Assembly (NCBI RefSeq): GCF_001558695.1
Contig: NZ_LNTU01000039.1
Coordinates: 124,001-188,000, forward strand
DNA: 64,000 bases
Direction: 5' to 3'
DNA from: Paramesorhizobium deserti
Lineage (GTDB): Bacteria; Pseudomonadota; Alphaproteobacteria; Rhizobiales; Rhizobiaceae
Shown here: piece after piece, positions 34,494 through 52,595 of the stretch
How positions within the stretch are numbered: position 1 is the stretch's first letter
How the letters are laid out: each line of letters opens with the position of its first letter
Made by a program: the position numbers and the translations under genes
The notes under the pieces: generated by a model
Database searches by the model: none
Told to the model about the DNA's origin: nothing
Seen by the model: the letters and a program-made list of their open reading frames with translations, nothing else

Positions 34494-36530
34494 ATGAGCG
34501 CCATCATCGCCGAACCGAAATCTTTTCGCCCCGACATCGAAGGATTGCGCGCCCTCGCGGTTCTGGGGGTGATCGCCTTCCATTTCGGCGTCACCGACCT
34601 GCCGGGCGGCTTTGTCGGGGTCGACGTCTTTTTCGTCATCTCGGGCTATCTCATCACAAAGCATCTCCTCCAGGAGATAGACCGGCGCGGCACGGTCGAT
34701 CTCCTGACCTTTTATGCCAGGCGTGCCCGTCGACTGCTCCCCGCGTCCATCTTCGTCATTCTGGTTACACTGTTCGCCGGCTATTTCATTCTGGCGCCGT
34801 CGGAGCAGCAGCTTTATTCGAAAGGCGCGTTGTTTGCTTCCACCTACGTCATCAATCTGTGGCTGATCCGCTGGTCTCTCGACTATTTCGCCCCGGATGC
34901 AAGCAACAATCCCTTCATCCATTTCTGGTCACTGTCGGTCGAGGAGCAGTTCTATCTGGTCTGGCCGGCGCTCCTCCTGCTCCTCGTCCGGGTGCGGGCT
35001 GACAGGCGCAGTCTCTTCATCATGATGGCCGGCATCGCCGCCATTTCCTTCGCAGCTTGCGCTTGGCTTACGGACGTCTCGCAACCTTGGGCCTTCTATT
35101 TCTCACCGTTCCGTGCCTGGGAATTCGCGCTCGGCGGCCTTGCGGCAATGACGTTGTCGGAGAGCTGGGCGAAGCGTTCCGCCATCTCGCCTCTACTGGG
35201 CTGGGCCGGCCTTGCCCTGATCCTGGGAACCTACCTGACGGTTTCGGAAGAAGACCCCTTCCCCGGTTTCATCGCGCTGGCACCGGCAATGGGAACGGTG
35301 ATGGTGCTTCTGAGCGGCATGCGCGAAAGCCGCGTGGCGCCAAAGAATATTCTCGCGATGGCGCCCTTTCAGTGGACGGGAAAACTCTCCTATTCCCTCT
35401 ATCTCTGGCATTGGCCGGTGATCGTTTATGCAGCGATGCTGATGCCCGACATGAGCATCGTGCAGCGCCTCGCATGCCTGGCATTGACCTTCGTTCTATC
35501 GATCATCAGCTATCACCTCGTCGAAAACCCCATCCGCAGGAATGCCTGGCTCGTCGCCGGCACCGGCCGTTCCATCGGGCTCGCCGCGATCCTCACCGTG
35601 AGCGGCGCTGCATTGGCCTATGGCAACGCCAAATTCGCGGGCCGTAATTTCAATCCTGAACAGCAGCTGATCGCTACAAGCGCCGAACGCTCATCAAGCG
35701 TACGGCAGACCGATGAAAGCTGTGTCGCCGATCTCGAGACGGTCAAGCCGAGGCCTTGCGTGTTCGGGGCATCCATGTCGGATAAGACCGTCGTCCTCTT
35801 CGGGGATTCCCATGCGGATCACTGGTCGACACCGCTGATCGAGATCGCCAAGAAGGAGGGCTTCCGCCTCATCACCTATATGAAGTCCTCCTGCCGCGCG
35901 ACACGGATGACGACATACAATATCAAGCTCAGACGCGATTATACGGAGTGCGATGATTGGCGGGAGCAGGCGATAAAGGAGATCATCGCGATGAAGCCGC
36001 AAATGGTCATCGTCTCGCAGCTTTCGATCAGTCACTTGGACGAGGAAATCAGCGACCCCTCCGAATATCCGCTTCGCAAGCAGCAATGGGCCGAGGGCAT
36101 AACATCGACGGCGGAGGAACTCAGCGATGTCGGCATCGACGTCGTCTACCTCCGTGATGTCCCAACCCATAAATCCTATATCGACAAATGTGTCGCGCGC
36201 GCGCTGTGGCAAAAACGAGAGCCGTCGGTCTGCGACACGCCGCGCGCCGAAGCAATGGATGATGCGGATGCAAAGACGGAGAGGGAAATCATCGCGCGCG
36301 TCGAGAATGCACGCTATGTCGACATGACCGATCTCTTCTGCAGCGAGACAACATGCCAGGCGATGATCGACGGCAAGCTGACCTTCCGCGACAGGCACCA
36401 TATCGCGACACCTTACGCTGCATCCCTGGCAGCGCCGATGGAACGGGCGGTCTTTGAAAACCAGATGGCGCACATCCAGAACGGCAGGACCAATGCGGCA
36501 AAAGACAGAGCCGTCCCGATGGCTCGATAG
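34494..36530 (+). CDS. OafA/YrhL-type acyltransferase with SGNH domain
   Basis: Membrane O-acyltransferase of 678 aa. The N-terminal half is an acyltransferase-3 domain with about ten helices, starting FRPDIEGLRALAVLGVIAFHFGV and containing FVGVDVFFVISGYLI and HFWSLSVEEQFYLVWP. The C-terminal half is an SGNH-like esterase domain with FGDSHADHW (block I) and RDRHHIATPYA (block V). Such proteins transfer acetyl groups to surface polysaccharides or O-antigen. No polysaccharide genes are adjacent. A gap of about 250 bases upstream holds no evident gene and presumably its promoter. Confidence 0.92.
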   Translation: MSAIIAEPKSFRPDIEGLRALAVLGVIAFHFGVTDLPGGFVGVDVFFVISGYLITKHLLQEIDRRGTVDLLTFYARRARRLLPASIFVILVTLFAGYFILAPSEQQLYSKGALFASTYVINLWLIRWSLDYFAPDASNNPFIHFWSLSVEEQFYLVWPALLLLLVRVRADRRSLFIMMAGIAAISFAACAWLTDVSQPWAFYFSPFRAWEFALGGLAAMTLSESWAKRSAISPLLGWAGLALILGTYLTVSEEDPFPGFIALAPAMGTVMVLLSGMRESRVAPKNILAMAPFQWTGKLSYSLYLWHWPVIVYAAMLMPDMSIVQRLACLALTFVLSIISYHLVENPIRRNAWLVAGTGRSIGLAAILTVSGAALAYGNAKFAGRNFNPEQQLIATSAERSSSVRQTDESCVADLETVKPRPCVFGASMSDKTVVLFGDSHADHWSTPLIEIAKKEGFRLITYMKSSCRATRMTTYNIKLRRDYTECDDWREQAIKEIIAMKPQMVIVSQLSISHLDEEISDPSEYPLRKQQWAEGITSTAEELSDVGIDVVYLRDVPTHKSYIDKCVARALWQKREPSVCDTPRAEAMDDADAKTEREIIARVENARYVDMTDLFCSETTCQAMIDGKLTFRDRHHIATPYAASLAAPMERAVFENQMAHIQNGRTNAAKDRAVPMAR

Positions 36531-36539
36531 ATGTGGCTT

Positions 36540-37823
36540 CTATGTCGTGGTCATGAACCGATCGAAGACCGTTTCAGACCCTACCTGCCCGCCCTTGAGC
36601 ATCAGCCGTGTGCCATCACGCTGGGGATCGGCGGAACGTGCGGTGCAGATTGCAACACCGTCATCGAGCTGATTTTCGAAGGCAAGGCTCGAGAAACCGA
36701 GACGGCGGACGAGAATGCTCGACGTATCGCCGCCGGCAATGCCCAGGGCACGCACCGCCTGCCTGTCGAGAATGGCCGCCGCGAGGTTAGCCAGTTTGCG
36801 CGCGAGATCGGCACCGTTCAGGCCATAATCCTCGTCGGGGACGAGATGAGCGAGAACATTATCTCCCGCCGCGAGCGCCTCGACACAGTGCGCAATAAAC
36901 CGCTGGCGTATCGTTTCGTGCGAAAGGTCCATCGGGCGGATCGGCATGCGCTTGAAACCCAGGGCCGCCCGCACCTGGGCGGCGGTTATTTCGGAACGGC
37001 TGCCGGCGATAACGAGACAAGGACCGTCCTTGCCCTTCTTTCTGCTCGTCGATGATTGCGCGACCCGCGGAGCCTCTCCTGCCGTTAAAGCTTCCGCCAC
37101 GCTGCTCGCGCCGATGACCAGCAACGGTCTGCCGTCATTTCCGAAATGCACCAAGGCGCTGCCGATCGTGGCGAGATGTGCCTGGCTGCAGGCGTCGAAT
37201 AGGATGTGCCGCTCCCCCGCACGCATCAGGTCTTCCAGATGCGCCGCCAATGCTGTCGGCGCCGCCTTTATCACCGGCAGCGCTATGAGTCTCAGGTCTT
37301 CCAGTCCCTGCTTTGCGAGGTGGTGGCGCAGATCCGCCTCCGTCATCGGTGTGACCGGATGATTGCGCATGACCGGGTGGCGGTCTATCCGATGAACCTG
37401 CCCGTGCGGGCCACGGGCGAAGAGATTGCCAAAAGCACAATAGCGGCCGAGGCTCGGCTGACCGCCGACGACCGCCACGAGTGCGGGAGCCAGATGATGC
37501 TCAAGGACACTGACCGCCCTTCCGATGCTGCCGATATCAGGGCTGGAATCGAATGTGGAGCAAACCTTGTAGTGGAGAATACGTGGCGAAAGCACCTTCA
37601 GCACTGGCGCCAGCGCATCAAGCCCGGCGGCGATGGCATCCGGAGCAAGTGCGCGAAACTCGGTGGCAAAGCCGATCGCGTCCAGATTTTCCTTGGCAAT
37701 GGCTCCGGGATCCGGCGGGGCGAGGAACAGGCGCACACGCCGGCCAGCGCGGGCGAGCGTCGCCAGCGTATCGGATGCGCCGGTGAAATCATCGCCGATG
37801 AAGACATAGTTGACGCTCACCAT
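36540..37823 (-). CDS. DUF1537 four-carbon acid sugar kinase family protein (OiaK-like)
   Basis: Kinase of 427 aa with the DUF1537 N-terminal motif FIGDDFTGASDTLA and C-terminal nucleotide-binding segment LGIAGGDTSSILVRRLG. Family members phosphorylate acid sugars such as erythronate, threonate, denconate and 3-oxo-isoapionate. The ATG at 37823 overlaps the stop of the RuBisCO-like gene (TGATG), with GGAGGC upstream. A kinase of this family next to a RuBisCO-like protein is the arrangement of the OiaK-OiaX step of D-apiose breakdown, so phosphorylation of a branched or oxo acid sugar is likely. Exact substrate is inference. Confidence 0.85.
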   Translation of the reverse strand: MVSVNYVFIGDDFTGASDTLATLARAGRRVRLFLAPPDPGAIAKENLDAIGFATEFRALAPDAIAAGLDALAPVLKVLSPRILHYKVCSTFDSSPDIGSIGRAVSVLEHHLAPALVAVVGGQPSLGRYCAFGNLFARGPHGQVHRIDRHPVMRNHPVTPMTEADLRHHLAKQGLEDLRLIALPVIKAAPTALAAHLEDLMRAGERHILFDACSQAHLATIGSALVHFGNDGRPLLVIGASSVAEALTAGEAPRVAQSSTSRKKGKDGPCLVIAGSRSEITAAQVRAALGFKRMPIRPMDLSHETIRQRFIAHCVEALAAGDNVLAHLVPDEDYGLNGADLARKLANLAAAILDRQAVRALGIAGGDTSSILVRRLGFSSLAFENQLDDGVAICTARSADPQRDGTRLMLKGGQVGSETVFDRFMTTT

Positions 37824-39088
37824 CAGCCTCCGAAGAAGCCAAGGGCGCGACGCAGCTCCGGCCGGTCCCTGGCCGCCTCACCAAGCGAGAGGCCCGAGGC
37901 AATCGCTTCATAAGCCTGGCGGAGGCCCTTCACCCCGGCGGCAGGCCCATCCGGATGGGCGAGAATGCCGCCGCCGGCCAGGAACATGAAGTCGGCCGAG
38001 CCGACGGCCCGATGCGTTACGGGCAGCGTGCCCGCCCATTGCCCGGAGGAGAAAACAGGCAGCACCGCATCCGCATCATCCACCGCATCCGCGGCAAGCG
38101 GCTTCAGGCAGCGGCGGGCGGCGGAGGCCACCTCCTCGGCGGAATCAGAGAACTTGCCGCCGATGCCGTGAACATGCAAATGATCGATGCCGGCAAGACG
38201 ATAGAGAGCCTGATAGGCATCAAAGCCGATGCCCAGGGCAGGATGCCGCGCAAAGGCGCCGAAGCCGTTGCGATGACCATGCAGGGCGAGCGGGGTAGCG
38301 CGGCGCAGACTTTGCAGGGCCGAGAGGCCGCACCAGTTGAGGCTCGCCATCACGCAAGCGCCCCCTTCCCTTTCCACGAGCTCCGCGTGCCGGCGCATGG
38401 CGTCGGTCTCGTCTGTGATGTTGAAAGCCACCATGACGTCACGGCCACTCGCTTCCCGATAGGCGCGGACCTTGCGCATCACCACTGGCACCCGTTCGGC
38501 AAGAGGCGCATGGTCCGGATCTGCGCAGACCTCGTCATCCTTGATGAGATCGACCCCCGCCTCGCAGAGAAGTCCCACCAGATCGGCGATTTCGGATGCC
38601 CGCATGCCGACATTCGGCTTGATAATGGTGCCAAAGAACGGACGATCCTCGACATTGAGCCGGCGGCGCGTTCCATCGACGCCAAGACGCGGCCGCTCGA
38701 AACGCGCGCGATAGGCCTCCGACAGCGCAACATCGGTGAGCCGTAGCCCCGTCACCTCTCCGAGATCATAGAGATTGCCGGCGAGCGTCGCCGCAAGTGT
38801 CGGCAGGTTGGCGCCGATATTGGCGGTGGGAAAGGCGATTTTCACCTTCGCCCGCCGGTATGGACCGGCAATGCCCTTGCGCTCGAGATAGGCGCTGGCG
38901 AGGCTCGGTTGTGCCACAGGCTCCAGCTCCTCGACCGAAAGCACTTCGGCGGCGGCGCGCTCGCGCAGTTCATCCGTCTCTCCCGCGACGCGGACGAAAG
39001 TGCCGCTCGATTGCTCGCCAGCCATGATCGCCGCCACCTTCTCAGGCTCCAGCGGCGTCTCGATCAGGTAATGCGCCTCTATCCTCAT
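37823..39088 (-). CDS. RuBisCO-like protein (form IV), OiaX-like
   Basis: RuBisCO large-chain-family protein of 421 aa. Active-site equivalents are kept: K157 (TIIKPNVG, RuBisCO K175), K183-D185-E186 (LIKDDE, the carbamylated Lys201 and metal ligands), H272-R273 (GHR), H305 and K312 (GGKFSD, loop 6 Lys334) and N105 (GNLYDL). The second loop lysine (K177) is Asn and the phosphate-loop sequences differ, so it is not a carboxylase. Related RLPs decarboxylate 3-oxo-isoapionate-4-phosphate or act in methionine salvage. Coupling to the DUF1537 kinase favours the first type: decarboxylation or isomerisation of a phosphorylated oxo acid sugar. Confidence 0.88.
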   Translation of the reverse strand: MRIEAHYLIETPLEPEKVAAIMAGEQSSGTFVRVAGETDELRERAAAEVLSVEELEPVAQPSLASAYLERKGIAGPYRRAKVKIAFPTANIGANLPTLAATLAGNLYDLGEVTGLRLTDVALSEAYRARFERPRLGVDGTRRRLNVEDRPFFGTIIKPNVGMRASEIADLVGLLCEAGVDLIKDDEVCADPDHAPLAERVPVVMRKVRAYREASGRDVMVAFNITDETDAMRRHAELVEREGGACVMASLNWCGLSALQSLRRATPLALHGHRNGFGAFARHPALGIGFDAYQALYRLAGIDHLHVHGIGGKFSDSAEEVASAARRCLKPLAADAVDDADAVLPVFSSGQWAGTLPVTHRAVGSADFMFLAGGGILAHPDGPAAGVKGLRQAYEAIASGLSLGEAARDRPELRRALGFFGG

Positions 39089-39095
39089 CGCCGCC

Positions 39096-39635
39096 TCACA
39101 GGGTGGAAAGATCGGGGAACGGGCGCACCGGATCCGCGCCGTCCCAACCCTCGGATGACTGGCGGATCAGGTCGAACAGCCGGCCTTTCGGCCCCATCAC
39201 CTCCGATAGCTCGATCACCGTGCCGGGATGCGCTTCCCGGTCGAAATAGACGAAACGGCCATTGGCACCCACCTTGCCGCTCATCTTCTGGCCGAAACCC
39301 TCGGCTTCCATACGGGTGAGATCGGCATCGTAATCCGTCGTCCAGTAGGCGACGTGCTGCAGCCCCCTGCGGCCGGCGCGCAGGAAATCGCGATACATCG
39401 AGGGCGCGTCGTTGCGTGTCTGGATCAGCTCCACCTGCAGGGGACCGCTGTTGGCGAGCGCGACGGAATTGTGGACCTCATAAGACTTACCGTCGTAGCG
39501 GTAATCCTCGATCGGCACCCGGGGATTATAGAACCAGGGGCCGACGCCCATGACCGAGTGCCAATGGGCCATCGCAGCCTCGATATCGTCCACCACATAG
39601 CCGAGCTGGCGGATCGCGCCCAGAAATCTGCTCAT
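39096..39635 (-). CDS. VOC-family (glyoxalase-fold) protein
   Basis: 179 aa, VOC fold. Opening IRQLGYVVDDIEAAMAHWHSVMGVGPWF is the first half-module; H94 (QHVAYW) and E142 (TVIELSEV) fit metal ligands, with E69 (VELIQ) as another. The usual first-strand histidine seems to be Gln10. VOC enzymes include isomerases, epimerases and lyases. Placed between a TRAP importer and an RLP-kinase pair, it may isomerise or epimerise the acid-sugar substrate; this is inference. Confidence 0.82.
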   Translation of the reverse strand: MSRFLGAIRQLGYVVDDIEAAMAHWHSVMGVGPWFYNPRVPIEDYRYDGKSYEVHNSVALANSGPLQVELIQTRNDAPSMYRDFLRAGRRGLQHVAYWTTDYDADLTRMEAEGFGQKMSGKVGANGRFVYFDREAHPGTVIELSEVMGPKGRLFDLIRQSSEGWDGADPVRPFPDLSTL

Positions 39636-39645
39636 ATTCGAATTC

Positions 39646-40923
39646 CTATTGCATCATGAGTCTTGGGAGCCAGGTCGAAATCGCGGGAACTGCGGAGACG
39701 ACCAGCAGCGAAAGAAGAAGCGGTATCAGGAAGGGCAGCACGCCACGGATCACCGCATGCACCGGCATCTTGGCGACGATCGACACCATGTAGAGGCTCA
39801 TGCCGATCGGCGGGGTGAGCAGGCCGATCATCAGGTTGAGCACGAAGACGATGCCGAGCTGCAGGGGATCGACACCCGCCGCGTGGAGCGCGGGAGCGAC
39901 GATCGGCGCGATGATCAGGATGGCGGCGATCGATTCCAGCACCATGCCGACGACAAGCAGCAATATGTTGACCAGAAGCAGCAGAATGAAAGGATCGTCG
40001 GAGAGGCCGAGCAGGAATGCGCCTGCCTTGGCTGGTACGCGGTCGAGGGTGAGCACCCAGGCGAAGACGGCCGCCGCCGCGACGATGAAAAGGATGCTGG
40101 CGGTCGCCTCCACCGTCTCGCGCAGGCTTTCCCAGACCTTTTGCGGCGTCAGCGTGCGGTAGACGGCAAAGCCGATCAGGAGGGCATAGGCAACGGTGAT
40201 GCCCGCCACTTCGGTAGGACCGAACCAACCGCTCAGAAGGCCACCGATGAGGAGCACGGGCGTAAGCAGCGCCGGGAAGGAGACGAACGCTTTCCTCGCC
40301 ACTGCACGCAGGGACGGGCTGACCACATCGCGCGGCAAATCGTAGAGACGCGCGATGATTGCGACCTGGACCATCAGGAAGAGCGTGATCAGAAGCGCCG
40401 GAACGATGCCGGCGATCAGAAGCTGCACGGCGGAAACATTGGCCACGCTCGCATAGATGATGATGGGGATGGAGGGCGGGAAGATCGGCCCGATGGTGGC
40501 GGCGGCGATGGTGATGCCGGCGGCGAAGTTCTTCTTGTAGCCCTGGCCGGTCATCTGGTCGATCTGGATCTTGCCCAGCGCCCCGATATCGGCAAGGGCA
40601 GCGCCCGAGACGCCCGAGAAGATGAGGCTGACGAGGATGGAGACCTGGGCTACCGCGCCACGGATGCGACCGACGAGGAGGCGCACGAGATCAAAGATGT
40701 GGGTCGTCACCCCCATCGCGTTCAAAAGGCTTGCAGCGAGGATGAACAAGGGAACGGCGAGCAGCGGTGTGGAATCGAGCGCATTGACCGTGCGCTGGGC
40801 CAGCACATTGATAGGCAATCCATAGACGGCGATCACCACCGCTGAGGAAAGCCCGAGCGAGACGGCGACCGGCGCGCCGGCCACGAGCGTGACGGCGAAG
40901 ACGAGAAGAAGGACGAGACTCAT
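39646..40923 (-). CDS. dctM: TRAP transporter large permease, DctM family
   Basis: Large permease of 425 aa with about 12 helices. Motifs include FSGVSGAALADIGALGKIQIDQM, AAATIGPIFPPSIPIIIYA and NLMIGLLTPPIGMSLYMV. It overlaps dctQ by four bases (start 40923). It imports the carboxylated substrate of the RLP cluster. Confidence 0.93.
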   Translation of the reverse strand: MSLVLLLVFAVTLVAGAPVAVSLGLSSAVVIAVYGLPINVLAQRTVNALDSTPLLAVPLFILAASLLNAMGVTTHIFDLVRLLVGRIRGAVAQVSILVSLIFSGVSGAALADIGALGKIQIDQMTGQGYKKNFAAGITIAAATIGPIFPPSIPIIIYASVANVSAVQLLIAGIVPALLITLFLMVQVAIIARLYDLPRDVVSPSLRAVARKAFVSFPALLTPVLLIGGLLSGWFGPTEVAGITVAYALLIGFAVYRTLTPQKVWESLRETVEATASILFIVAAAAVFAWVLTLDRVPAKAGAFLLGLSDDPFILLLLVNILLLVVGMVLESIAAILIIAPIVAPALHAAGVDPLQLGIVFVLNLMIGLLTPPIGMSLYMVSIVAKMPVHAVIRGVLPFLIPLLLSLLVVSAVPAISTWLPRLMMQ

Positions 40924-41444
40924 GATGCTGCACTGTCCTCCGGCATGTCAGCGCTCTGGGTGAAAAGCCCGGCAAGGCGGAGGAGCGAAATCATGAGAAG
41001 CAATATGAAACCCAAGAGCGCTGGCGCGTAGAACAGCCAGTTGGATATGCCGATGGCAGGTGTTGCGAACTTTCCGGCACGCGACAGGAAAGACTGGAAG
41101 CCATAGAGGGTCAGCAGGCAAAAGGCCGATATCGCGATCTCGATGAAGGCGAGCACATAGCGCCGAAGGTGCTGCGGCAGCATCATCGGCACGAGATCGA
41201 CCGCCACGTGCTGCCCGCGCAGGGCGAGGAGCGGGACGGAGAGGAAAACGAGCGCAATGCCGCTGAAGCGCGCAAGTTCATCCGCCCATGGCATGCCGAG
41301 ATTGAAGATGTTGCGGCCGACGACCTGAGTGACGATGAGCAAAGCCATCAGGGCGAGCAGAAAAATCGCCATGGTGCGGCAGGCAAGCGAGACCGCTTTC
41401 AAGCCTCCGCCAGCCGTCCTGACAACGGAACCGATACGCATCAT
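40920..41444 (-). CDS. dctQ: TRAP transporter small membrane subunit, DctQ family
   Basis: 174 aa with four hydrophobic helices and the characteristic GMPWADELARFSGIALVFLSVPLLALRGQHVAVDLV segment. Partner of the DctM encoded next. Two consecutive ATG codons at 41444 and 41441 make the exact start uncertain by one residue. Confidence 0.9.
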   Translation of the reverse strand: MMRIGSVVRTAGGGLKAVSLACRTMAIFLLALMALLIVTQVVGRNIFNLGMPWADELARFSGIALVFLSVPLLALRGQHVAVDLVPMMLPQHLRRYVLAFIEIAISAFCLLTLYGFQSFLSRAGKFATPAIGISNWLFYAPALLGFILLLMISLLRLAGLFTQSADMPEDSAAS

Positions 41445-41467
41445 ATTGCTCTTCGATCAACGCTCAC

Positions 41468-42502
41468 TTAGCTGATCGCCCTGATTTTCTCATAGAGCGC
41501 GCCGTATTTCTCGCCGAAGCGCTCCTGTACGAGCTTGTCGACGGACGCGCGGAAGGCATCGATCTTGAGACCTTCCTCGGGGCCGATCACAGTCATGCCG
41601 AGATCACGCAGTGCCCGGGTATCCTTCTCCTCATTCTCCTGGATCGCCTTGGTGGCGCGTTCGCGGATTTCGACCGCGGCTTTCGTCACGGCCTCCTTGT
41701 GCTCATCGGAAAGCCCCTGCCAGGCGTCCTCGTTCATGACGACCACCTCGGCATTGGACATGTGTCCCGTCAGCATGAGGTGCGACTGCACCTCGTAGAG
41801 CTTGACGTTGAGGATGACATTCACAGGGTTTTCCTGGCCGGCGACGACACCGGTCGCAAGCGCGGTCGGCACTTCCGACCAGTCGACCGGGACGGCCGCA
41901 GCTCCAAGCCCCTCGACGGCGGTCGTATAGATCGGGAACGGAACGGCGCGGATCTTCTCGCCGGCAAGATCGGCCGGCGAATAGACCGCCTTATTGGCCG
42001 TCAGATTGCGACGGCCAAAATAATGCGCATAGATCACGCGCACATTGGCCGCCTTGATCAGCCCCTCGTTCAACTCCTGCATCACCGGGGAACTGACGTC
42101 CACCACCTTCATGAGATGGTCGACATCGCGATAGAGATAGGGCGTGTCGAGAGCGGCGAAGGGCTCATAGAGCGAGCCAATGCCACCGGCCGTGTTATGT
42201 GAGAAGGCGATCGTGCCGAGTGAAACGGCTTCCGCCAGTTCCTGCAGCTTGCCCAGCTGCGAGGACGGGAAAACCTCGACGGCAAGATCGCCGCCGGAAT
42301 ATTTGGCGACCGCTTCGGCGAACCAGTCGGCCTGCGCGCCGGCAACGCTCGCCGGCTCGTTGTTGTGGCCATAGCGCAGCGTCACCGACTGCGCCAGCGA
42401 GGGGCCGGAAAGCATGGCGGCGGCGCTGGCGCCAAGGCCCAGCGCGAGCGCCGTCCGGCGACTGACAGGGCGTCCGCCAAGGTGTATTGAATTCCGGTTC
42501 AT
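41468..42502 (-). CDS. dctP: TRAP transporter substrate-binding protein, DctP family (Tat-exported)
   Basis: 344-aa binding protein with a twin-arginine signal (VSRRTALALGLGASAAAMLSGPSLAQS), unlike the Sec signal of the other DctP in the window. Conserved binding-site Arg lies in LAGEKIRAVPFPIY. The ATG at 42502 follows GGGAGG; an ATG at 42520 is upstream but lacks this. It heads the minus-strand operon dctP-dctQ-dctM-VOC-RLP-kinase. The ligand is presumably an aldonate-type acid sugar. Confidence 0.9.
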   Translation of the reverse strand: MNRNSIHLGGRPVSRRTALALGLGASAAAMLSGPSLAQSVTLRYGHNNEPASVAGAQADWFAEAVAKYSGGDLAVEVFPSSQLGKLQELAEAVSLGTIAFSHNTAGGIGSLYEPFAALDTPYLYRDVDHLMKVVDVSSPVMQELNEGLIKAANVRVIYAHYFGRRNLTANKAVYSPADLAGEKIRAVPFPIYTTAVEGLGAAAVPVDWSEVPTALATGVVAGQENPVNVILNVKLYEVQSHLMLTGHMSNAEVVVMNEDAWQGLSDEHKEAVTKAAVEIRERATKAIQENEEKDTRALRDLGMTVIGPEEGLKIDAFRASVDKLVQERFGEKYGALYEKIRAIS

Positions 42503-42610
42503 CGAATCCTCCCATGACATGTTCTGACGTTTTTAAGGCGGCGGCCCATCCGGTCTCCTCCCCGGGTCGCTGCCTACTTGACACAAGGCTAGGAACTCGC
42601 ATGCTTCTGG

Positions 42611-42628
42611 TCAAATGAGAAAATTTGA
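42611..42628. promoter_or_regulatory. Inverted repeat in the dctP-LacI divergent region
   Basis: TCAAA (42611-42615) and TTTGA (42624-42628) form an inverted repeat, and the second arm is part of a direct repeat TTTGAGG at 42624-42630 and 42634-42640. A TTGACA hexamer occurs at 42578-42583. These AT-rich elements are the best candidates for the operator and promoter of this divergent pair, but none is a strong match to a LacI site. Confidence 0.3.
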
Positions 42629-42663
42629 GGTTTTTTGAGGTGTCATCAGATCAGGGGAACAAC

Positions 42664-43746
42664 TTGCCGGCACCGCTCATGGCCGATATCGCCGAAGCGG
42701 CACAGGTTTCGCTGGCGACGGTCGACCGGGTGCTGAACAGGCGCAAGGGCGTGAAGGCGCGAACCGTCGAGCGCGTGCTCCAGGTCGCTTTCGATCTCGG
42801 TTATGTCAGCGAGGCGGATCACGCGCGGCTCGTTCATCCGCGCCCGCCGAACGTCGTCTTCCTGCTGCCGATGGGCGGCAACCCCTATTTGAGGCTGTTC
42901 GGCGACAAGGTTCGCGCCATCGCCCAGTCGAAATCGCGCGATGAACCGCAGGTGCGGTGCTATTTCATCGAGAGTTTCGATGCCGGCGCGCTTGCCTCAG
43001 CCATCCGCCACCATGCCGGCTGGGCCGACGGCATCGCCTTCATGGCGATCGACCATCCGCTGGTGCGCGAGGCGGTCGAAGAGGTCTCGGCCGCCGGCAA
43101 GCGCATCGTCACCATCGTCTCCGACCTGCAGCATTCGCTGCGCGACGCCTATGTCGGCCTCGACAACCAGGCTGCCGGGCGCACCGCCGGCTATCTGCTC
43201 GGCCGGTTCTGCCACCGGCCCATGGGCAGCGTCGCCCTGGTGGCGGGGAGCCGCAACTACCGCGCCCACGCCGAGCGGGAAATGGGTTTTCTCGGCCTGA
43301 TCGAGGAACTCTATCCCGGCTTGAAAGTCATCGGCATGCGCGAGGGGCATGACGACCGCGACGAGAATTATCGTCTCACGCTTTCGCTTCTCGAGCAGAA
43401 CCGCGATCTCGTCGGCATCTACAATGTCGGCGGCTCGTCCGACGGCATCGGCCGGGCATTGCGGGAAAAGAACCTGTCCGGAGAGATGGTTTTCATTGGA
43501 CACGGGCTGACGGCGGATACAAGGCGGCTCCTCATCGACGGCACCATGGACGCGGTGATCAATTCCGATCCAGACGTGCTGCTGGCGACCACGCTACGGC
43601 TCTTCAGCGACCTCCAGCGCGGCGGTATTTCCAACCCGTCACTGCTGCCGCCGGTCAAGATGGACATCATCTTCCGCGAGAACATTCCACCCGTTCAATC
43701 CGTCGCCGGCGGCGCCGCAACAAGGCGCGGCAGGCACCCGTTTTGA
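42664..43746 (+). CDS. LacI-family regulator of the RLP/TRAP cluster
   Basis: Regulator with an N-terminal LacI helix-turn-helix (MADIAEAAQVSLATVDRVLNRRKGVKARTVERVLQVAFDLGY) and a sugar-binding-protein-like effector domain (VVFLLPMGGNPYL onward), about 360 aa. The start is uncertain: TTG at 42664 has AGGGGA at good spacing and places the helix-turn-helix at the N-terminus; GTG at 42640 and TTG at 42625 are in frame. It is divergent from dctP and probably represses the acid-sugar operon until the substrate appears. Confidence 0.85.
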   Translation: MPAPLMADIAEAAQVSLATVDRVLNRRKGVKARTVERVLQVAFDLGYVSEADHARLVHPRPPNVVFLLPMGGNPYLRLFGDKVRAIAQSKSRDEPQVRCYFIESFDAGALASAIRHHAGWADGIAFMAIDHPLVREAVEEVSAAGKRIVTIVSDLQHSLRDAYVGLDNQAAGRTAGYLLGRFCHRPMGSVALVAGSRNYRAHAEREMGFLGLIEELYPGLKVIGMREGHDDRDENYRLTLSLLEQNRDLVGIYNVGGSSDGIGRALREKNLSGEMVFIGHGLTADTRRLLIDGTMDAVINSDPDVLLATTLRLFSDLQRGGISNPSLLPPVKMDIIFRENIPPVQSVAGGAATRRGRHPF

Positions 43747-43803: not shown

Positions 43804-43962
43804 CAAGGCTCAAATATTTTATGCGCTGAAAAGCAAAATTTAACCATATTTGGCCATCTTTTCTCAATCATACGGGTCAAACTGAGGGAAATCCGGAAAT
43901 CACGCAGTAGCGGTCGCTCGCCGGCCTGAAGATCTTTGCGGGATTTCGGCTTTGTAAGCGTT

Positions 43963-45201
43963 GTGAGTAAAACTGTTCGTGTACAATCCTTGCGCAGTTT
44001 CCTGCGTCCGCTGCTGATAACGATCCTCGGCGCCACTTTAGCGGGTGGAGCCATGTGGTCGGTGGCCGGCATGGTCGCGATGACCAGCACTCTTTCTTAC
44101 GGTTCAGGTTCGTTTTTGCCCAAGCCGCAGCTCTACTCCTTCGAGAAGATGAAGGTGCAACGGCCGGATGAGCAGGCCATGAAGGACAAGGCGCTGAAGT
44201 TCATCGCGGCTCTGGAGGCGTCCGTTGCGCCCGTGAGCGTTGCTGGCGGCAAAGTCGCCCGCCACCCTGGTCGACCCGATTCCGCCAAGCCGCAGAACCT
44301 CATGGCAGAGGTTGGCAAACCCGCCGCGGAGCGGTTTGGGCCGCGCGCACCCGGCTCGACCGGCCAACCCCAGAACTTGCTGGCCTATGCGGCTCCTGTT
44401 CCGGGGGCCGCGGCTGGCGCCGCCCTGTCTACCTGGCTGGCGGCGTCATTGCGGGAAAAGTCCGCCGCATCGCAGGATGCAGATACCGACACGGACGAGG
44501 ACGTGGCCGCCCTGCCCGGCTTCGACGGCAATGCTTCCGACATTCCTCTGCCGCAGCTTCGCCCGCGTGGCGAGGAAGGTCGCCGGCTCGCCGCAGAAAT
44601 GGCGGAATCCGCCGTCCAGCCGGTCGAAGAGCCGCCGCGGCCGAAAGCCTCCCCCGAACGCGAGACCTCGAAGCCGCAGATGCTCGCTTACGCACGTCCG
44701 GACAACCCTACGGAGAGGGCGAAAGGCGGCGGTTTCGGCAAAACGCTGCGCGATCTGTTCGGAGGCAGCCCCAAGCCGGGAAACGGCGTGGCGGTCTATG
44801 ATATCAGCGCCGCGAAGGTCTATATGCCCGACGGCAGCGTGCTCGAGGCCCATTCCGGCATCGGCAAGATGGCCGATAACCCGCGTTACGTCCACGTCAA
44901 GATGAACGGCCCTACCCCGCCTCATACCTATAATCTCAGGATGCGCGAAAAGCGCTTTCATGGCGTGGAGGCCATCCGCATGCTGCCCGTGGACGGCAAG
45001 AACAAATATGGCCGCGACGGCTTCCTGACCCACAGCTATCTGCTGCGCGGCAGGGAGGCGCAGTCCCACGGATGCGTCGCATTCAAGGACTATGACCGGT
45101 TCCTGAAAGCCTTCAAGCAGGGCAAGGTCAAGCAGCTCGTCGTGGTGCCGAGCCGGGGAGAGGCGACCATGCGCCTCGTCTCCAACGGCCGGAGCCTCTG
45201 A
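43963..45201 (+). CDS. DUF2778/Tlde1-type L,D-transpeptidase-like protein
   Basis: About 412 aa. An N-terminal membrane helix (FLRPLLITILGATLAGGAMWSVAGMVAM) is followed by a long Pro/Ala-rich linker and a C-terminal DUF2778 domain (GVAVYDISAAKVYMPDGSVLEAHSG...) ending with the catalytic REAQSHGCVAFKDYDRF, in which SHGC is the transpeptidase signature. It probably acts on peptidoglycan in the periplasm as a tethered enzyme. The start is uncertain (GTG 43963 preferred; TTG 43936 in frame). It is unrelated to the catabolic clusters on both sides. Confidence 0.83.
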   Translation: MSKTVRVQSLRSFLRPLLITILGATLAGGAMWSVAGMVAMTSTLSYGSGSFLPKPQLYSFEKMKVQRPDEQAMKDKALKFIAALEASVAPVSVAGGKVARHPGRPDSAKPQNLMAEVGKPAAERFGPRAPGSTGQPQNLLAYAAPVPGAAAGAALSTWLAASLREKSAASQDADTDTDEDVAALPGFDGNASDIPLPQLRPRGEEGRRLAAEMAESAVQPVEEPPRPKASPERETSKPQMLAYARPDNPTERAKGGGFGKTLRDLFGGSPKPGNGVAVYDISAAKVYMPDGSVLEAHSGIGKMADNPRYVHVKMNGPTPPHTYNLRMREKRFHGVEAIRMLPVDGKNKYGRDGFLTHSYLLRGREAQSHGCVAFKDYDRFLKAFKQGKVKQLVVVPSRGEATMRLVSNGRSL

Positions 45202-45213: not shown

Positions 45214-45960
45214 CTATCCAACGTGATAGCCGCCATCGACCGGCAGCGTTACGCCGGTCACGAATGCGGCCGCCGGCGACGCCAGGAACAGCACCGGGCC
45301 GACGAGATCTTCCGTCGTCCCCCACCGTTTCAGGGCCGAACGGTCGCTGATTTTCTTTTCGCTGTCAGGAACCGACCAGAGCGGTTTCGTCATTTCGGTG
45401 CGGTGATAACCCGGCGCGATCGCATTCACCCGAACCCCCTCACGCCCATATTTATGGGCAAGCGCCCGGGTGAGACCGACAATGCCTGTTTTGCTTGCGG
45501 TATAGGCGGGCACCGTCTCGTCCGCCAGATAGCTCAGCATCGAGGCGACATTGACGATGCTGCCTTTGGCTTCCTTCAACAGCGGAAAGGATTCCCGCGA
45601 CAGCCGCATGGCGCTGGAGAGGTTGATGTCCATGACATCCATGAAGGTTTCCTCCTCCCACTCGGCATCCGGCCGTGCCACGCCCTGGCAGTTTACCAGA
45701 ACATCCAGCCGCTTAAGGCCGGAGAAGAAAGTGGTGACTGCCTGCTTGTCGCGGACATCCAGACGCTGGAATGAGATGCCGCCCCGCTCCTCGGCCTTCG
45801 CGGTGGCGAGCCGCCTTTCGGAACTGCCCGTGGCGATCACCGTCGCACCGGCCTCGGCAAAACCCTTGGCGAGCGAAAGGCCGATACCACTGGTGCCGCC
45901 GGAGACGACCACCGTATTGCCGGAGAACAGTCCGGGCCTGAAAGCCTTTACTTCCTTCAT
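45214..45960 (-). CDS. SDR-family oxidoreductase
   Basis: Short-chain dehydrogenase of 248 aa. NAD(P)-binding GGTSGIGLSLAKG, NxxG-like NCQGVA, catalytic Ser in VASMLSYL and YTASKTG (Y-x-x-x-K) are present. The start at 45960 follows GGAGG; a GTG at 45972 includes that site and is unlikely. It is the last gene of the left arm of the polyol-type cluster and may oxidise a second hydroxyl of the substrate. Confidence 0.9.
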   Translation of the reverse strand: MKEVKAFRPGLFSGNTVVVSGGTSGIGLSLAKGFAEAGATVIATGSSERRLATAKAEERGGISFQRLDVRDKQAVTTFFSGLKRLDVLVNCQGVARPDAEWEEETFMDVMDINLSSAMRLSRESFPLLKEAKGSIVNVASMLSYLADETVPAYTASKTGIVGLTRALAHKYGREGVRVNAIAPGYHRTEMTKPLWSVPDSEKKISDRSALKRWGTTEDLVGPVLFLASPAAAFVTGVTLPVDGGYHVG

Positions 45961-45974
45961 CCTATCCTCCACTC

Positions 45975-47066
45975 TTAAACCAGTGCTTCAAGCACTCTGA
46001 CGACCATCTCTTGGGTCACCGGCATGGGCTCGTTATGGATGATCTCGCCCGCCCGGCAAGCGCGTCTGGCGACGATGGACAGTTTTTCCGGCGTCGCATC
46101 GACAATGCCGATATCAGCAAGCTTCGTCGGCAGGCGGACGGAAAGACAGAACCGCCGCACCCGCTCATATTCGTCGTCCAAATCATGCAGCTTCAGCCCG
46201 GCGAGCACGCCGATCGCCACTTTCTCGCCATGCAGGTGATGGTGTACGTCGTCGAGCTCGCAGAGCCCATGATGGATGGCATGAGCCGCCGCAACGCCAC
46301 CGGATTCAAAGCCGATGCCCGATAAGAGGATGTTCGCCTCGACCACGCGTTCGAGCGCCGGCCCCGCATTCTTCGTATCGCATTCCTGCAAAGCCGCCGG
46401 CCCGAATTCAAAGATCGTATCGCGGCAGAAGCGCGCAACTTCATAGGCGAGCGGCACGCCCGGCATCTTCATGCAGTTGAAAGCCCCGCTGCGGCGGCAG
46501 GAATCGGCCTCGTACCAGGTGGCAAGAGCATCACCAATGCCCGCGGCCAGGAAACGAGCTGGCGCCCTGGCGATGAGGGCGGTATCGACCATGACGAGAT
46601 CGGGATTGCTCGGGAGGAACGTATCGTAGGCGACCGTGCCATCCTCGTTATAGACCACTGCAAGTGCACTGCAGGGCGCATCCGAAGCAGCAATGGTGGG
46701 AAAGACGATGACGGGCAACGCCACATCGCGCGCGGCCGCTTTCGCGGTATCGAGCGCCTTGCCGCCCCCTGCCCCGATAATGACTGAGGCGCCCGCCGCC
46801 TTTGCGGCATCAGCGAGAGATACGATCGCTATTTCCGAACACTCGCCGCCATGGCGGACGATCTCGACCGCCGGTCCTTCTGCGAAGGCGGCTTCAATAT
46901 CGGCCTTCAGCAGATCAAAAATGCCATTGTCGAGCAGAACGATCGCATTGTCGCCGAAAGCCTTCGCCTCAGCGCCGAGCCGCGCGATAACGCCGGGGCC
47001 CTGGATATAGCGGCCGGGAAACCGCGCGCCGCGCACCATACCCGCCTGATCCGCCTTCACCAGCAT
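45975..47066 (-). CDS. Glycerol dehydrogenase-like iron/zinc alcohol dehydrogenase
   Basis: Group III metal-dependent dehydrogenase of 363 aa, GldA type. Features are GAGGGKALDTAKA (NAD binding), TIAASDAPCSALAV, the metal Asp in GIGDALATWYEA, and histidines in AAHAIHHGL and HHHLHGEKVAIG. GGAGG precedes the ATG at 47066, which lies within the last codons of the upstream SDR gene (10-base overlap). In this cluster the substrate is more likely a polyol or keto-sugar than glycerol; inference. Confidence 0.9.
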   Translation of the reverse strand: MLVKADQAGMVRGARFPGRYIQGPGVIARLGAEAKAFGDNAIVLLDNGIFDLLKADIEAAFAEGPAVEIVRHGGECSEIAIVSLADAAKAAGASVIIGAGGGKALDTAKAAARDVALPVIVFPTIAASDAPCSALAVVYNEDGTVAYDTFLPSNPDLVMVDTALIARAPARFLAAGIGDALATWYEADSCRRSGAFNCMKMPGVPLAYEVARFCRDTIFEFGPAALQECDTKNAGPALERVVEANILLSGIGFESGGVAAAHAIHHGLCELDDVHHHLHGEKVAIGVLAGLKLHDLDDEYERVRRFCLSVRLPTKLADIGIVDATPEKLSIVARRACRAGEIIHNEPMPVTQEMVVRVLEALV

Positions 47067-47830
47067 ACGTAACCTCCATCGGCCAGCACGATTGAGCCGG
47101 TCAGAAGGCTCGCCGCATCACTCGCCAGAAACAGGATGACCGAGGCCACCTCGTCGGTGCGGCCAAGCCGGTTCATCGGCGTGCCGCCGACCCAGTGGCG
47201 GTACATCTCCTCGTCTTCATAAACGTATTTGTTCATCTCGGTGTCGATATAGGTCGGCGCGACCGAATTGACGCGCACGCCGCGTGCACCCCATTCGGCG
47301 GCAAGCGACTTCGTCAGATGATGGACCGCGGCCTTCGAGGCGTTGTAGTTCGCCTGCTCCTGCGGCCGGTTGACAATGAAGCCCGACATCGACCCGACAT
47401 TGACGATCGAGCCGACGCCCTGCTTCAGCATCGTGTTGCCGAAGGCACGGCAGCACCAGAAAACGCCGTTGAGATTGACATCGATCACCTTACTCCAGAC
47501 CTCGTCGGCCATGGTCTCGGCCGGATGATTGGAGATGGCGATGCCGGCATTGTTGACAAGCACGTCGATCCTGCCATGGCGGGCGAGAATGGCATCATGC
47601 ACCGCTTGGACGGCCTTGACATCCGTCACATCGAGCACTTCGCCATCGACCGGATAGCCCTTCCCTTTCAGCACATCGGTCGCGCCGGCGAGCAAATCCG
47701 GGTTCATGTCGGTGAGCACGACGGTCGCGCCGGCCTCGGCGAGCGCTTCCGCGGTCGCAAGACCGATGCCGCGCGCGGCACCCGTGATGACGGCAATCCT
47801 GCCGGTGAGCTTGAACTTGTCGAGATACAT
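47057..47830 (-). CDS. Polyol dehydrogenase of the SDR family (galactitol/arabinitol type)
   Basis: SDR of 257 aa with GAARGIGLATAEALA, NNAGIA, the catalytic region VGSMSGFIVNRPQEQANYNASKAAVHHLTKSLAAEW and C-terminal VLADGGYVCW. This layout matches galactitol and arabinitol/xylitol dehydrogenases, which oxidise sugar alcohols to ketoses with NAD. Together with the ABC importer and FGGY kinase it suggests that a polyol is the entry substrate. Confidence 0.87.
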   Translation of the reverse strand: MYLDKFKLTGRIAVITGAARGIGLATAEALAEAGATVVLTDMNPDLLAGATDVLKGKGYPVDGEVLDVTDVKAVQAVHDAILARHGRIDVLVNNAGIAISNHPAETMADEVWSKVIDVNLNGVFWCCRAFGNTMLKQGVGSIVNVGSMSGFIVNRPQEQANYNASKAAVHHLTKSLAAEWGARGVRVNSVAPTYIDTEMNKYVYEDEEMYRHWVGGTPMNRLGRTDEVASVILFLASDAASLLTGSIVLADGGYVCW

Positions 47831-47831
47831 G

Positions 47832-48515
47832 TCAGGCGATCCTTGAGACGGATACGGTTTCGAACGAACTGGAAAGAAGCGGCCGGAGCGTCGCTACGAG
47901 ATCATGCGGATCGGCATTGATGGTTCCGACGGGAAAGACGATGTCGGGGCGATGCGGCTCCGGCCAGCCGATCACGGTCATACCCGCCGCGAGACCGGCG
48001 CTGGCGCCGGGTGCGCTGTCTTCCACCACAATGCAGGCGGCAGGCTCGACACCGAGCAGCCAGGCGGCGCGCAGATAGGGCTCCGGATGCGGTTTGCCGG
48101 AACGCACGTCATTGCGCGTGACGCTGACGAGGCCCGGCGTCTGCAGGTCGACGGCGGTGAGATTGGCATCGGCGAGTATCCGGTCCGAATTCGAGACGAT
48201 GGCCATGGCGGCACCGGAGGACCGGACGAGCCCCAGAACCGCTTGCGCACCCTCCCGCATCCGCAGCACGCGCGCCCTTTCGATATAAAGGGCGTATTTC
48301 CGCGCCACAAAATCATCGAGCGGCGGTGCGAAGCCGATCATCTCCGCCAGCAAGGCGTGGCAGTCGCCGATCGTTCTGCCTGTAACGCGTTCGGCATAGC
48401 CGTCGGGCACTGCGTAGCCGAAGCTTTCGACAGCGGCCGCCAGCGTCTCGAAATGCAGGACTTCGCTGTCGATCAGCGTTCCGTCCATATCGAAGAGAAC
48501 GGCTTTGTTGCTCAT
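47832..48515 (-). CDS. HAD-superfamily hydrolase (beta-phosphoglucomutase/sugar phosphatase-like)
   Basis: 227 aa HAD protein with motif I FDMDGTLID, motif II IVSNSD, and motif III/IV SGKPHPEPYLRAA...IVVEDSAPGASAGLAAG. The helical cap is of the beta-phosphoglucomutase/sugar-phosphatase type. Its start overlaps the FGGY kinase stop by four bases. It may remove phosphate from a misphosphorylated or dead-end sugar phosphate in this pathway. Confidence 0.9.
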   Translation of the reverse strand: MSNKAVLFDMDGTLIDSEVLHFETLAAAVESFGYAVPDGYAERVTGRTIGDCHALLAEMIGFAPPLDDFVARKYALYIERARVLRMREGAQAVLGLVRSSGAAMAIVSNSDRILADANLTAVDLQTPGLVSVTRNDVRSGKPHPEPYLRAAWLLGVEPAACIVVEDSAPGASAGLAAGMTVIGWPEPHRPDIVFPVGTINADPHDLVATLRPLLSSSFETVSVSRIA

Positions 48516-50014
48516 GACGACAGCCGGTCCAGATCATCATAAAGCGATTGGCTATGGAAATAGAGTTTTTCGAAGAAGGCCTGCATCGGCCGGTAGACCT
48601 CGGCCCAGGCCGGATCGGGCATGACCTCCTCCGCATAGGTTACATAGGCTTCCGCCGCATCCTCGACGGTGGAATAAAGCCCAGTCGCCGCTGCCGCCAT
48701 TGCCGCGCAGCCGACAATGCCGCATTCGGCTTCGGCGGGAACGAGGATCGGAATGCCGTAGACACTGGCCTTGATCTTCATCCAGAGCTTGGTCCTTGCC
48801 CCGCCGCCCGAGGCGATCACGCGCTGCAGCGGTGTCCCGGAAATACCGTCGAGGATGTCGATATGGCGCTTCACGGCGAAGGCCACGCCTTCCAGCACCG
48901 CCCGGTGCATGTGGGCGAGCCCGTGCGCCGCACCGATACCGAAGAACTGGGCGCGCGCATTGCGGTGGTCGCCAAGCCGCTCACCGGCGAGATAGGGCAT
49001 GAAGAAGAGACGGTCGCAGCCCGCCGGCGCCTCGGCCGCCTTGGCCACGATATCCTCATAGCTCACCTGCTTCTCATGAAAGGCGCGCCGTGCCCAGCGC
49101 ATGGCGTCGCCACCGGATTCAAGCAGCATGAAGGCACCCCAATTGCCTTCGACGGTGCCGACATTGGAAACCACAGCATTGAGCAGCGGCTTTTCGGCGA
49201 TTGCCGTGATGATGGCGGAGGTGCCCATCACCTCCGAGCCGATGCCTGGCCGGCAGACGCCGGAGCCAAGCAGCGCCACAGGATAATCTCCGCCGCCGAC
49301 AAGCACCGGCGTGCCTTCGCGCACGCCCGTCTGGCGTGCCGCCTCCGCTGTGACATGCCCCAGAATCTCGACAGGATTGCGCAATGGCGCGAGCTTCGCC
49401 CGATCGAGACCAAGCAGGCCGATCATCCGGTCGGACCATTCGCCGGTGCGCGGATCCATCAGGAAGCTCGCGCCGCCCTCGGTGCGGTCCATGGTGATTT
49501 CGCCGGTGAGCCTGAGATTGATCCAGTCCTTGGGCATCAGCACCGCCGCTGTCCTGCGCCAGGCTTCCGGGTCCATGTCGCGCAGCCATTGCAGCTTGAA
49601 GCCCGGCCAGGCCGGGGCTGCCGGATTAGCGCTGTCGGCAAGATAGGTCTCCGGCCGATGCGCCTTTTCGAACGCCTTCACATGGGCGACGGTGCGCTTG
49701 TCGTTCCAGAGCGGCGCCGTATCGCGTGCAAGATTTCCGCGATCGTCGACGAGCACCGTGCCGTGCATCTGGCCACAGGTCGCGACGGCGGAAATGCGCC
49801 CCCGCGCATCCGGCTCCTTTGAAAGCAGGTCGCGGATCGCGGCAACGACCCCGTTCCACCAGTCCGCCGGCCGCTGCTCGGACCAGCCGAACTGCGGCAC
49901 AATCTGCTCGTGCTCCCGCGCGCTGATCGCCAGAACCTTGCCGCGCTGGTTGACGAGAGCGGCACGCACGCTGCCGGTCCCGACGTCGATGGTGAGAAAC
50001 AGTTCTTCGGACAT
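48512..50014 (-). CDS. FGGY-family carbohydrate kinase
   Basis: 500 aa, hexokinase-fold kinase of the xylulokinase branch. N-terminal phosphate motif TIDVGTGSVRAALV, catalytic Asp region GGGDYPVALLGSG, and C-terminal RVIASGGGARTKLWMKIKASVYGIPI (FGGY signature 2) are visible. It likely phosphorylates the ketose made by the adjacent polyol dehydrogenase. Xylulose-like, ribulose-like or hexulose substrates cannot be told apart from sequence. Confidence 0.92.
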   Translation of the reverse strand: MSEELFLTIDVGTGSVRAALVNQRGKVLAISAREHEQIVPQFGWSEQRPADWWNGVVAAIRDLLSKEPDARGRISAVATCGQMHGTVLVDDRGNLARDTAPLWNDKRTVAHVKAFEKAHRPETYLADSANPAAPAWPGFKLQWLRDMDPEAWRRTAAVLMPKDWINLRLTGEITMDRTEGGASFLMDPRTGEWSDRMIGLLGLDRAKLAPLRNPVEILGHVTAEAARQTGVREGTPVLVGGGDYPVALLGSGVCRPGIGSEVMGTSAIITAIAEKPLLNAVVSNVGTVEGNWGAFMLLESGGDAMRWARRAFHEKQVSYEDIVAKAAEAPAGCDRLFFMPYLAGERLGDHRNARAQFFGIGAAHGLAHMHRAVLEGVAFAVKRHIDILDGISGTPLQRVIASGGGARTKLWMKIKASVYGIPILVPAEAECGIVGCAAMAAAATGLYSTVEDAAEAYVTYAEEVMPDPAWAEVYRPMQAFFEKLYFHSQSLYDDLDRLSS

Positions 50015-50071
50015 GGATCTCCCTACTCCGCCTCCTCCGTGACCTGATCACAGGCCGGCATGGCCAGGTTC

Positions 50072-52563: not shown

Positions 52564-52595
52564 TGCGCGAATGCTTCTTCGGGGTCAGTTCGACT

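Follow-up and report, generated by a model that had tools for sequence, protein, structure and literature searches.

Which acid sugar is broken down where a RuBisCO-like protein (RLP) and a DUF1537 kinase are encoded together with a vicinal oxygen chelate (VOC) protein and an importer, and is such a locus another D-apiose system? We address this question for a gene cluster of Paramesorhizobium deserti, positions 36540-43746 of a 64,000-nucleotide stretch of contig NZ_LNTU01000039.1 (hereafter the window). The initial annotation, made from the sequence alone, had read dctP-dctQ-dctM-VOC-RLP-kinase as one minus-strand operon with a divergent LacI gene, and had proposed an acid-sugar pathway distinct from known apiose clusters; the open reading frames (ORFs) and Pfam identities are as it claimed (Table 1). 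The kinase, the RLP, the tripartite ATP-independent periplasmic (TRAP) importer and the VOC protein all belong to known families, the RLP-kinase pair is known from apiose catabolism, and no description of a VOC-RLP-kinase module was found among the titles and abstract openings of the open-licence literature. We find that the VOC, RLP and kinase genes constitute a conserved module, that the module of the window is not a D-apiose operon, and that it looks like a separate branch of the RuBisCO-like sugar-acid pathways.

Conservation of the module

A search of 397 genomes of the same order recovered an RLP at an identity of at least 62% in 15, the window's own included, and in all 14 relatives (RLP identity 61-77%) the genes for LacI, DctP, VOC, RLP and kinase were present together; in one of them, L047, DctP was found and DctM was not matched. 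Gene contexts, here and below, span ~6.5 kb on each side and are shorter at contig ends. The same set recurs in 80 named loci (RLP identity 62-86%), which are the best 80 of 584 confirmed RLP candidates and represent the clade near the window rather than RLPs at large: LacI, VOC and RLP were found in 80 of 80 and the kinase in 79, the exception being L149, where the contig ends. A LacI homologue lies on the strand opposite the operon in every named locus, and the organism names place these loci in the Alpha-, Beta- and Gammaproteobacteria. Since the gene set recurs in all the order relatives and in the named loci, VOC-RLP-kinase is a conserved module, beyond chance.

The constant core thus comprises LacI, VOC, RLP and kinase, and the importer changes between loci. 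Three variants were seen, namely TRAP type 1, as in the window, where the DctP, DctQ and DctM subunits are all present; a second type of TRAP importer whose permease is fused, an annotated example being the operon of Azospirillum brasilense Sp7; and an amino-acid-type ATP-binding cassette (ABC) importer, with genes in L101, L114, L137, L150 and L151 (Pfam-checked in L114 only). Among the 80 named loci, DctP was unmatched in five and DctM in ten, of which five carry ABC genes and the other five have DctP and no DctM match.

The association also holds when it is approached from the VOC protein. In 398 genomes of the phylum, all eight VOC genes scoring above 330 bits stand beside an RLP and a kinase, whereas neither an RLP nor a kinase was matched in the 15 lower-scoring VOC loci that we opened (33-55% identity; the contig truncates one of them, L218). 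Comparison of gene neighbourhoods therefore ties this VOC family to the module RLP clade: each of the 101 module RLPs has a VOC gene next to it (the RLPs represent 99 distinct sequences, as L043/L124 and L093/L228 are the same contigs counted twice).

A module apart from D-apiose catabolism

In D-apiose systems, reportedly described by Carter et al. in 2018, a DUF1537 kinase (OiaK, the 3-oxo-isoapionate kinase) is likewise encoded next to an RLP (OiaX, the 3-oxo-isoapionate-4-phosphate decarboxylase, or OiaT), the two act in series on a 3-oxo acid, and the RLP has the same fold and metal site. The module differs in that it has no linked ApsD, ApnL or ApnO, with a fixed VOC protein and an acid importer instead, and in that its RLP and kinase stand in clades of their own. 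The window RLP scores 385 bits against the OiaX model (NF042437, cut-off 700) and the kinase 238 bits against the OiaK model (NF042436, cut-off 700), so neither belongs to the respective family by these models; kinases of apiose clusters likewise remain under the OiaK cut-off, with 570 bits in L051 and 447 bits in the window's genome. Nor does the RLP side with the methionine-salvage enolases, since the MtnW models, which were compared by score and not in the trees, give 161 bits (cut-off 409) and 145 bits (cut-off 514). In the kinase tree the module kinases (41 rows) fall into one clade with an SH-aLRT support of 95, apart from the kinases of apiose, OiaX and short-chain dehydrogenase/reductase (SDR) systems; this tree and the RLP tree described below hold subsets of the module rows. 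The proposed distinction from apiose clusters thus stands for both enzymes, the comparison with characterised OiaX, OiaT and OiaK being one made through models.

The genome of the window itself offers a direct contrast. It encodes, besides a RuBisCO, a true OiaX on contig C4 (777.7 bits), and ~64 kb away from the module, on the module's own contig, an apiose-type cluster with a kinase, an ApnO-like PGDH_C protein, an ApsD-like Gfo/Idh/MocA dehydrogenase, a 637-residue protein without a Pfam match, which by size and place we take to be an ApnL candidate, and, judging from the sequences, a putative sugar ABC importer. In the window, none of apsD, apnL and apnO was matched. Across 156 RLP contexts (101 module, 51 of a sister group closer to the apiose-cluster RLP, here called RLP50, and 4 OiaX), an ApnO gene adjoins 30 of the 51 RLP50 genes and none of the 101 module genes, whereas a VOC gene, present beside every module RLP, adjoins only one RLP50. 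The VOC protein is not itself an ApnO: the ApnO-like genes beside RLP-kinase pairs have the PGDH_C domain, in keeping with what we take to be the family's make-up of NAD-binding and PGDH_C domains, and the VOC protein matches glyoxalase models only. Given the separate apiose-type cluster and true OiaX of the same genome, and the opposite distribution of ApnO, the module of the window is not a D-apiose operon, as the initial annotation had held, and an entry compound other than apionate is plausible.

Active site of the RLP

In the RLP tree the module RLPs, 39 rows including PDB 3NWR, constitute one clade and OiaX (13 rows) another, each with an SH-aLRT support of 100. The structure 3NWR, from Burkholderia fungorum, is the closest PDB entry to the window RLP (612 bits), and it grouped with Paraburkholderia loci in an earlier RLP tree. 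It was deposited as 'A rubisco-like protein' with no function named, and no paper mentioning both 3NWR and RuBisCO turned up in the open-licence literature searched.

Aligned with the RuBisCO of the same genome, the window RLP keeps K157, K183, D185, E186 and K312 at K175, K201, D203, E204 and K334 (RuBisCO numbering), and N159 stands in place of K177, exactly as had been read from the sequence at the outset. The pattern is general, since E60, T65, N123, K175, K201, D203, E204, H294, R295, H327, K334 and S379 are each kept in 39 of 39 module rows, K177 is replaced by Asn in all 39, and G380 by Ser in 36. With Asn at K177, the module RLP lacks the pair of lysines, K175 and K177, that would mark a RuBisCO carboxylase. 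The 33 apiose-type RLP50 rows have the module pattern, but with Ser at K177. OiaX has diverged in another direction, with E60 changed to Asp, N123 to Gly and H327 to Gln in 13 of 13 rows each, and S379 to Cys (10) or Gly (3), positions at which the module rows retain E, N, H and S throughout.

OiaT yields 3-phosphoglycerate and glycolate. If the RLP50 proteins of apiose clusters are OiaT, the module pattern fits the transcarboxylase/hydrolase kind, and since the module RLP keeps nearly all the RuBisCO catalytic residues lost by OiaX, we predict a transcarboxylase/hydrolase-like cleavage rather than plain decarboxylation. Both a decarboxylase and a transcarboxylase/hydrolase are described among the characterised RLPs of apiose pathways in PMC6302742.

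Haloarchaeal plasmids, too, encode RLPs of this kind; in L205 the RLP is accompanied by kinase, SDR and TRAP genes. RLP-kinase pairs were further seen beside an annotated beta-L-arabinofuranosidase-domain gene in L201 (Croceibacterium), and beside GH28, pectinesterase and Asp/Glu racemase-family genes in L206 (Rufibacter).

Role of the VOC protein

The VOC proteins of the named loci and of the genus g42 operons described below are 66-90% identical to that of the window, and Q10, E69, H94 and E142, presumably the metal ligands, are invariant in 14 rows. A Foldseek search with the AlphaFold2 model (pLDDT 89) returned 3gm5 and methylmalonyl-CoA epimerases as best matches, and the Glyoxalase_4 family is shared with these enzymes; however, the VOC protein scores only 25 bits against the epimerase model (cut-off 115), and its operon contains no CoA enzyme. 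The VOC protein is likely an enediolate-forming metal isomerase or epimerase. Relatives at ~55% identity were considered as a clue to the ancestral reaction and rejected as uninformative, their neighbours being TctC, P450, methyltransferase, SDR and other genes.

The initial annotation had the VOC protein replace the ApnO oxidoisomerase of apiose pathways. The isomerase half of this claim may stand, but oxidation does not: the Pfam scan found no nucleotide-binding model in the VOC protein, which should therefore not oxidise its substrate. An SDR gene opens the operon in five named loci (L148, L152, L155, L156 and L159), the last four products being 80-81% identical to that of L148, and this suggests SDR plus VOC as a two-protein counterpart of ApnO. 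Of 100 module loci that were probed (the window, L035-L048, L084-L163 and L225-L229), the other 95 gave no match to the L148-type SDR, which leaves two possibilities: the acid enters at the keto level, or its dehydrogenase is encoded away from the operon. In a chosen subset of 25 module genomes, 20 have an SDR homologue at E 1e-60, but a match within so large a family is weak evidence.

Exchange of the RLP-kinase pair within one genus

A natural exchange bears on the substrate. Genus g42 is most likely Bradyrhizobium, the VOC protein of its genome G971 (contig C419) having the sequence of that in the named Bradyrhizobium locus L156, and it carries the VOC operon in 15 of 242 genomes searched. 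Only 4 of these 15 operons have the module RLP, and 11 have an RLP50-KIN2 pair in its place; the TRAP permease is of type 2 in 14, the remaining operon, L284, having a type-2 DctP and an SDR. The VOC proteins of the exchanged operons constitute one clade (support 99) nested among the module VOCs. The exchanged RLPs, six of the 11 being in the tree, likewise fall into one clade (100/100), within an apiose-dominated group of 37 rows (98/93) of which 26 come from apiose-type contexts; for this tree nine long or deep rows (L206, L209, L259-L263, L265 and L266) were dropped. The one exchanged kinase in the tree, that of L052, groups with three apiose kinases (support 88; sister 80). A link of the L052 RLP to the SDR-TRAP systems was unstable (most recent common ancestor of 31 rows, support 34) and is not claimed.

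By this reading of the trees, an apiose-type RLP-kinase pair would work downstream of the VOC protein in the exchanged operons. As the apiose-type pair substitutes for the module pair beside the same VOC, the 3-oxo acids on which the two pairs act are probably identical or alike.

Related TRAP systems

Sets of SDR, TRAP, RLP and kinase genes in Cupriavidus pinatubonensis, Bradyrhizobium elkanii and Azospirillum oryzae share a related type-2 TRAP importer and the RLP-kinase pair with the module, but have SDR dehydrogenases in place of the VOC protein and an RLP of the RLP50 type or deeper-branching. Pyruvate kinase or enolase genes adjoin some of the related sets. In L202, L203, L208 and L264 an SDR, a type-2 TRAP importer, an RLP and a DUF1537 kinase occur without a VOC gene and with pyruvate kinase or enolase nearby, and L202 has an ApnO-like gene ~6 kb downstream.

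The importer was also considered as a source of clues. The nearest solved solute-binding proteins to the window DctP are 4p47, 4p9k/4pak and 4pdh, and PDB 4OAN closely resembles the type-2 DctP found in module operons (431-450 bits; 62% for the module copy of genome G194). The two loci with 4OAN orthologues that were opened (L301 and L302) have genes for a fused TRAP permease and an acyl-CoA-ligase-like protein and gave no RLP match, and deduction of the substrate from importer homology was therefore dropped. In the family of G194, 126 of 295 genomes contain 4OAN matches at 1e-90, with paralogues counted in. The ligands are reportedly 2-acetolactate, as modelled in 4OAN, and D-erythronate in 4p9k, 4pdh and 4pdd.

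Proposed pathway and alternatives

From the gene order and its conservation, the mutual exclusion with ApnO, the pair exchange and the residue pattern we infer, down to every reaction and substrate, a catabolic module under LacI control that breaks down an imported keto acid-sugar; we hold this tentative scheme with slightly less than even confidence. The TRAP importer, or elsewhere another TRAP or ABC importer, would bring in the acid; the methylmalonyl-CoA-epimerase-like VOC protein would turn it into a 3-oxo acid through an enediolate-type isomerisation or epimerisation; a hydroxyl would be phosphorylated by the DUF1537 kinase; and the RLP would cleave the 2-carboxy-3-oxo skeleton in the manner of RuBisCO, by transcarboxylation/hydrolysis, which would yield 3-phosphoglycerate together with a small acid, for example glycolate. 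The 3-oxo acid would most likely be 3-oxo-isoapionate or a very close analogue, formed without ApnO, and a reduced incoming substrate would be oxidised by the SDR dehydrogenase placed first in some operons.

Several observations weigh against this scheme. Most module operons have no linked dehydrogenase, which leaves the oxidation state of the imported acid unaccounted for, and in five of the 25 genomes, the window's among them, an SDR homologue at 1e-60 is absent. The exchange is a single event in one genus, in which broken copies also occur (an RLP gene split in two in L278, a VOC gene with a TAG and an RLP gene with a TGA), the exact sister of the exchanged RLP clade is not settled by the tree, the RLP50 group also includes SDR-TRAP systems, and the apiose-cluster RLP50 is equated with OiaT by elimination. 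Finally, no pyruvate kinase gene was matched in any of the 100 module loci probed, so 3-phosphoglycerate as a product would rest on analogy; this slightly lowers our confidence in the scheme and slightly raises that in plain decarboxylation.

The module might act on a different acid, a branched six-carbon one such as a 2-carboxypentitol (hamamelonate type). In that case the VOC protein would be an epimerase, the larger 3-oxo acid would be the specific substrate of the kinase and, as its phosphate, of the RLP, and cleavage would give 3-phosphoglycerate plus either glycolate or glycerate. The separate clades of the module RLP and kinase would suit such a substrate, an Ochrobactrum anthropi RLP has been reported in the D-hamamelose pathway (Kim 2018, as cited in PMC8914248 and PMC10176493), and 2-carboxyarabinitol, which derives from hamamelose, occurs in plant leaves according to PMC9833046. 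We nevertheless consider this unlikely, as the exchange points to a substrate on which an apiose-type pair can act.

The RLP could, alternatively, be a plain decarboxylase of a 3-oxo-acid phosphate, giving a ketose phosphate as OiaX does. OiaX is its best NCBIfam model, the metal site and the loop-6 Lys are common to both, and the missing link to pyruvate kinase would be accounted for; yet the score below the cut-off, the separate clade, and the fact that the OiaX changes at E60, N123, H327 and S379 are found in none of the 39 module rows make this improbable.

Still less probable is a route for a linear four-carbon acid, parallel to OtnI/OtnK/OtnC, in which the VOC protein would isomerise a 2-oxo/3-oxo tetronate, the kinase would form 3-oxo-tetronate 4-phosphate, and the RLP would decarboxylate it to dihydroxyacetone phosphate. 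Such pathways, OtnI/OtnK/OtnC and DtnK/PdxA, were reportedly described by Zhang et al. in 2016, who are also said to have pointed out TRAP-DUF1537-RuBisCO neighbourhoods without solving them. They resemble the module in their TRAP importer, DUF1537 kinase and phosphate-acting cleavage enzyme, but the module has the RLP for OtnC/PdxA and the VOC protein for OtnI. OtnC is of the class II aldolase type. The window kinase is related to the 3-oxo-tetronate kinase (180 bits, cut-off 350), its solved relatives are the DUF1537 proteins 5dmh, 3dqq and 1yzy, and DUF1537 kinases use four-carbon acids according to PMC10971088. Against this, the kinase scores higher with OiaK than with OtnK, the module RLP retains residues that the decarboxylase OiaX dropped, and OtnC already serves such a route.

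An accessory role in D-apiose use, with apionate fed in by ApsD and ApnL, is very improbable: apsD and apnL lie ~2.4 kb upstream of the LacI gene in G658, but this is one of the 100 loci probed and so no fixed partnership, we dropped it as an apiose link because that genome has its own separate ApnO-kinase-RLP50 set, and a search of 25 module genomes left 15 without an ApnO match that reached 300 bits.

Returning to the keto acid-sugar module, one can conceive a bolder version of the scheme. The VOC protein would be a metal-dependent ketol-acid isomerase that needs no cofactor, acts on branched sugar acids and shares the task of ApnO with a linked or unlinked SDR. The module RLP would represent an additional functional class among the RuBisCO-like enzymes of catabolism, with the RuBisCO hydrolysis machinery kept, K177 replaced by Asn, and 3NWR as its first member. 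We regard this combination as doubtful.

Organisation of the locus and its surroundings

Table 1. Genes of the module in the window, with strand and domain matches
Feature	Coordinates	Strand	Domain or model match
DUF1537 kinase, predicted 3-oxo-acid-sugar kinase	36540..37823	-	Pfam SBD_N + NBD_C
RuBisCO-like protein (RLP), predicted 3-oxo acid-sugar phosphate cleavage enzyme	37823..39088	-	Pfam RuBisCO_large
VOC protein, predicted metal-dependent isomerase or epimerase	39096..39635	-	Pfam Glyoxalase_4
DctM, TRAP large permease (type 1)	39646..40923	-	Pfam DctM; TIGR00786 above cut-off
DctQ, TRAP small permease	40920..41444	-	Pfam DctQ
DctP, TRAP solute-binding protein	41468..42520	-	Pfam DctP; TIGR00787 above cut-off
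Divergent LacI-family regulator	42679..43746	+	Pfam LacI + Peripla_BP_4

Read on the minus strand, 36540-42520, the genes run dctP-dctQ-dctM-VOC-RLP-kinase. The RLP stop and kinase start overlap at 37823 and the gaps are short (VOC-RLP 7 nt, dctM-VOC 10 nt), so the genes from dctP to the kinase probably constitute one transcription unit; dctQ and dctM also overlap, and dctP and dctQ are 23 nt apart. ORFs were called by a simple script and gene starts are approximate. The LacI ORF opens with a TTG at 42625, and the helix-turn-helix starts at the ATG at 42679, which is probably the true start.

The gaps between LacI and importer genes contain A-rich direct repeats, with 10-mers of the ATCAAAAACCATC-type motif common to up to 46 of 96 gaps; the gap of the window has the variant CCTCAAAAAACCTCAA of the repeat motif on the minus strand at 42620-42660. 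These repeats in the divergent gap are a possible LacI operator.

The plus-strand neighbours at 34494-36530 and 43936-45201 point away from the operon and, by the ORF list, appear unrelated. Farther along, the minus strand at 45214-53717 carries a separate set of an SDR, a GldA-like dehydrogenase, a second SDR and a haloacid dehalogenase-type (HAD) phosphatase, followed by a sugar-kinase-like gene and a sugar ABC importer (the latter two identified from translations), which looks like a polyol or pentitol operon. An acid-sugar-like set follows on the plus strand at 53860-58800, with KDPG-aldolase-like, shikimate-dehydrogenase-like, hydroxyacid dehydrogenase, metallo-hydrolase and RpiR-like regulator genes, as judged from translations only.

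Implications

Few functions have been assigned to RuBisCO-like proteins outside methionine salvage. With a solved RLP structure, a fixed VOC protein and an importer, the module, which occurs in Alpha-, Beta- and Gammaproteobacteria, makes a function testable with about four proteins, and the residue comparison provides a concrete prediction, namely that the module RLP kept what OiaX lost. An assigned function would show how the decarboxylation, recarboxylation and hydrolysis steps of RuBisCO are split among its relatives.

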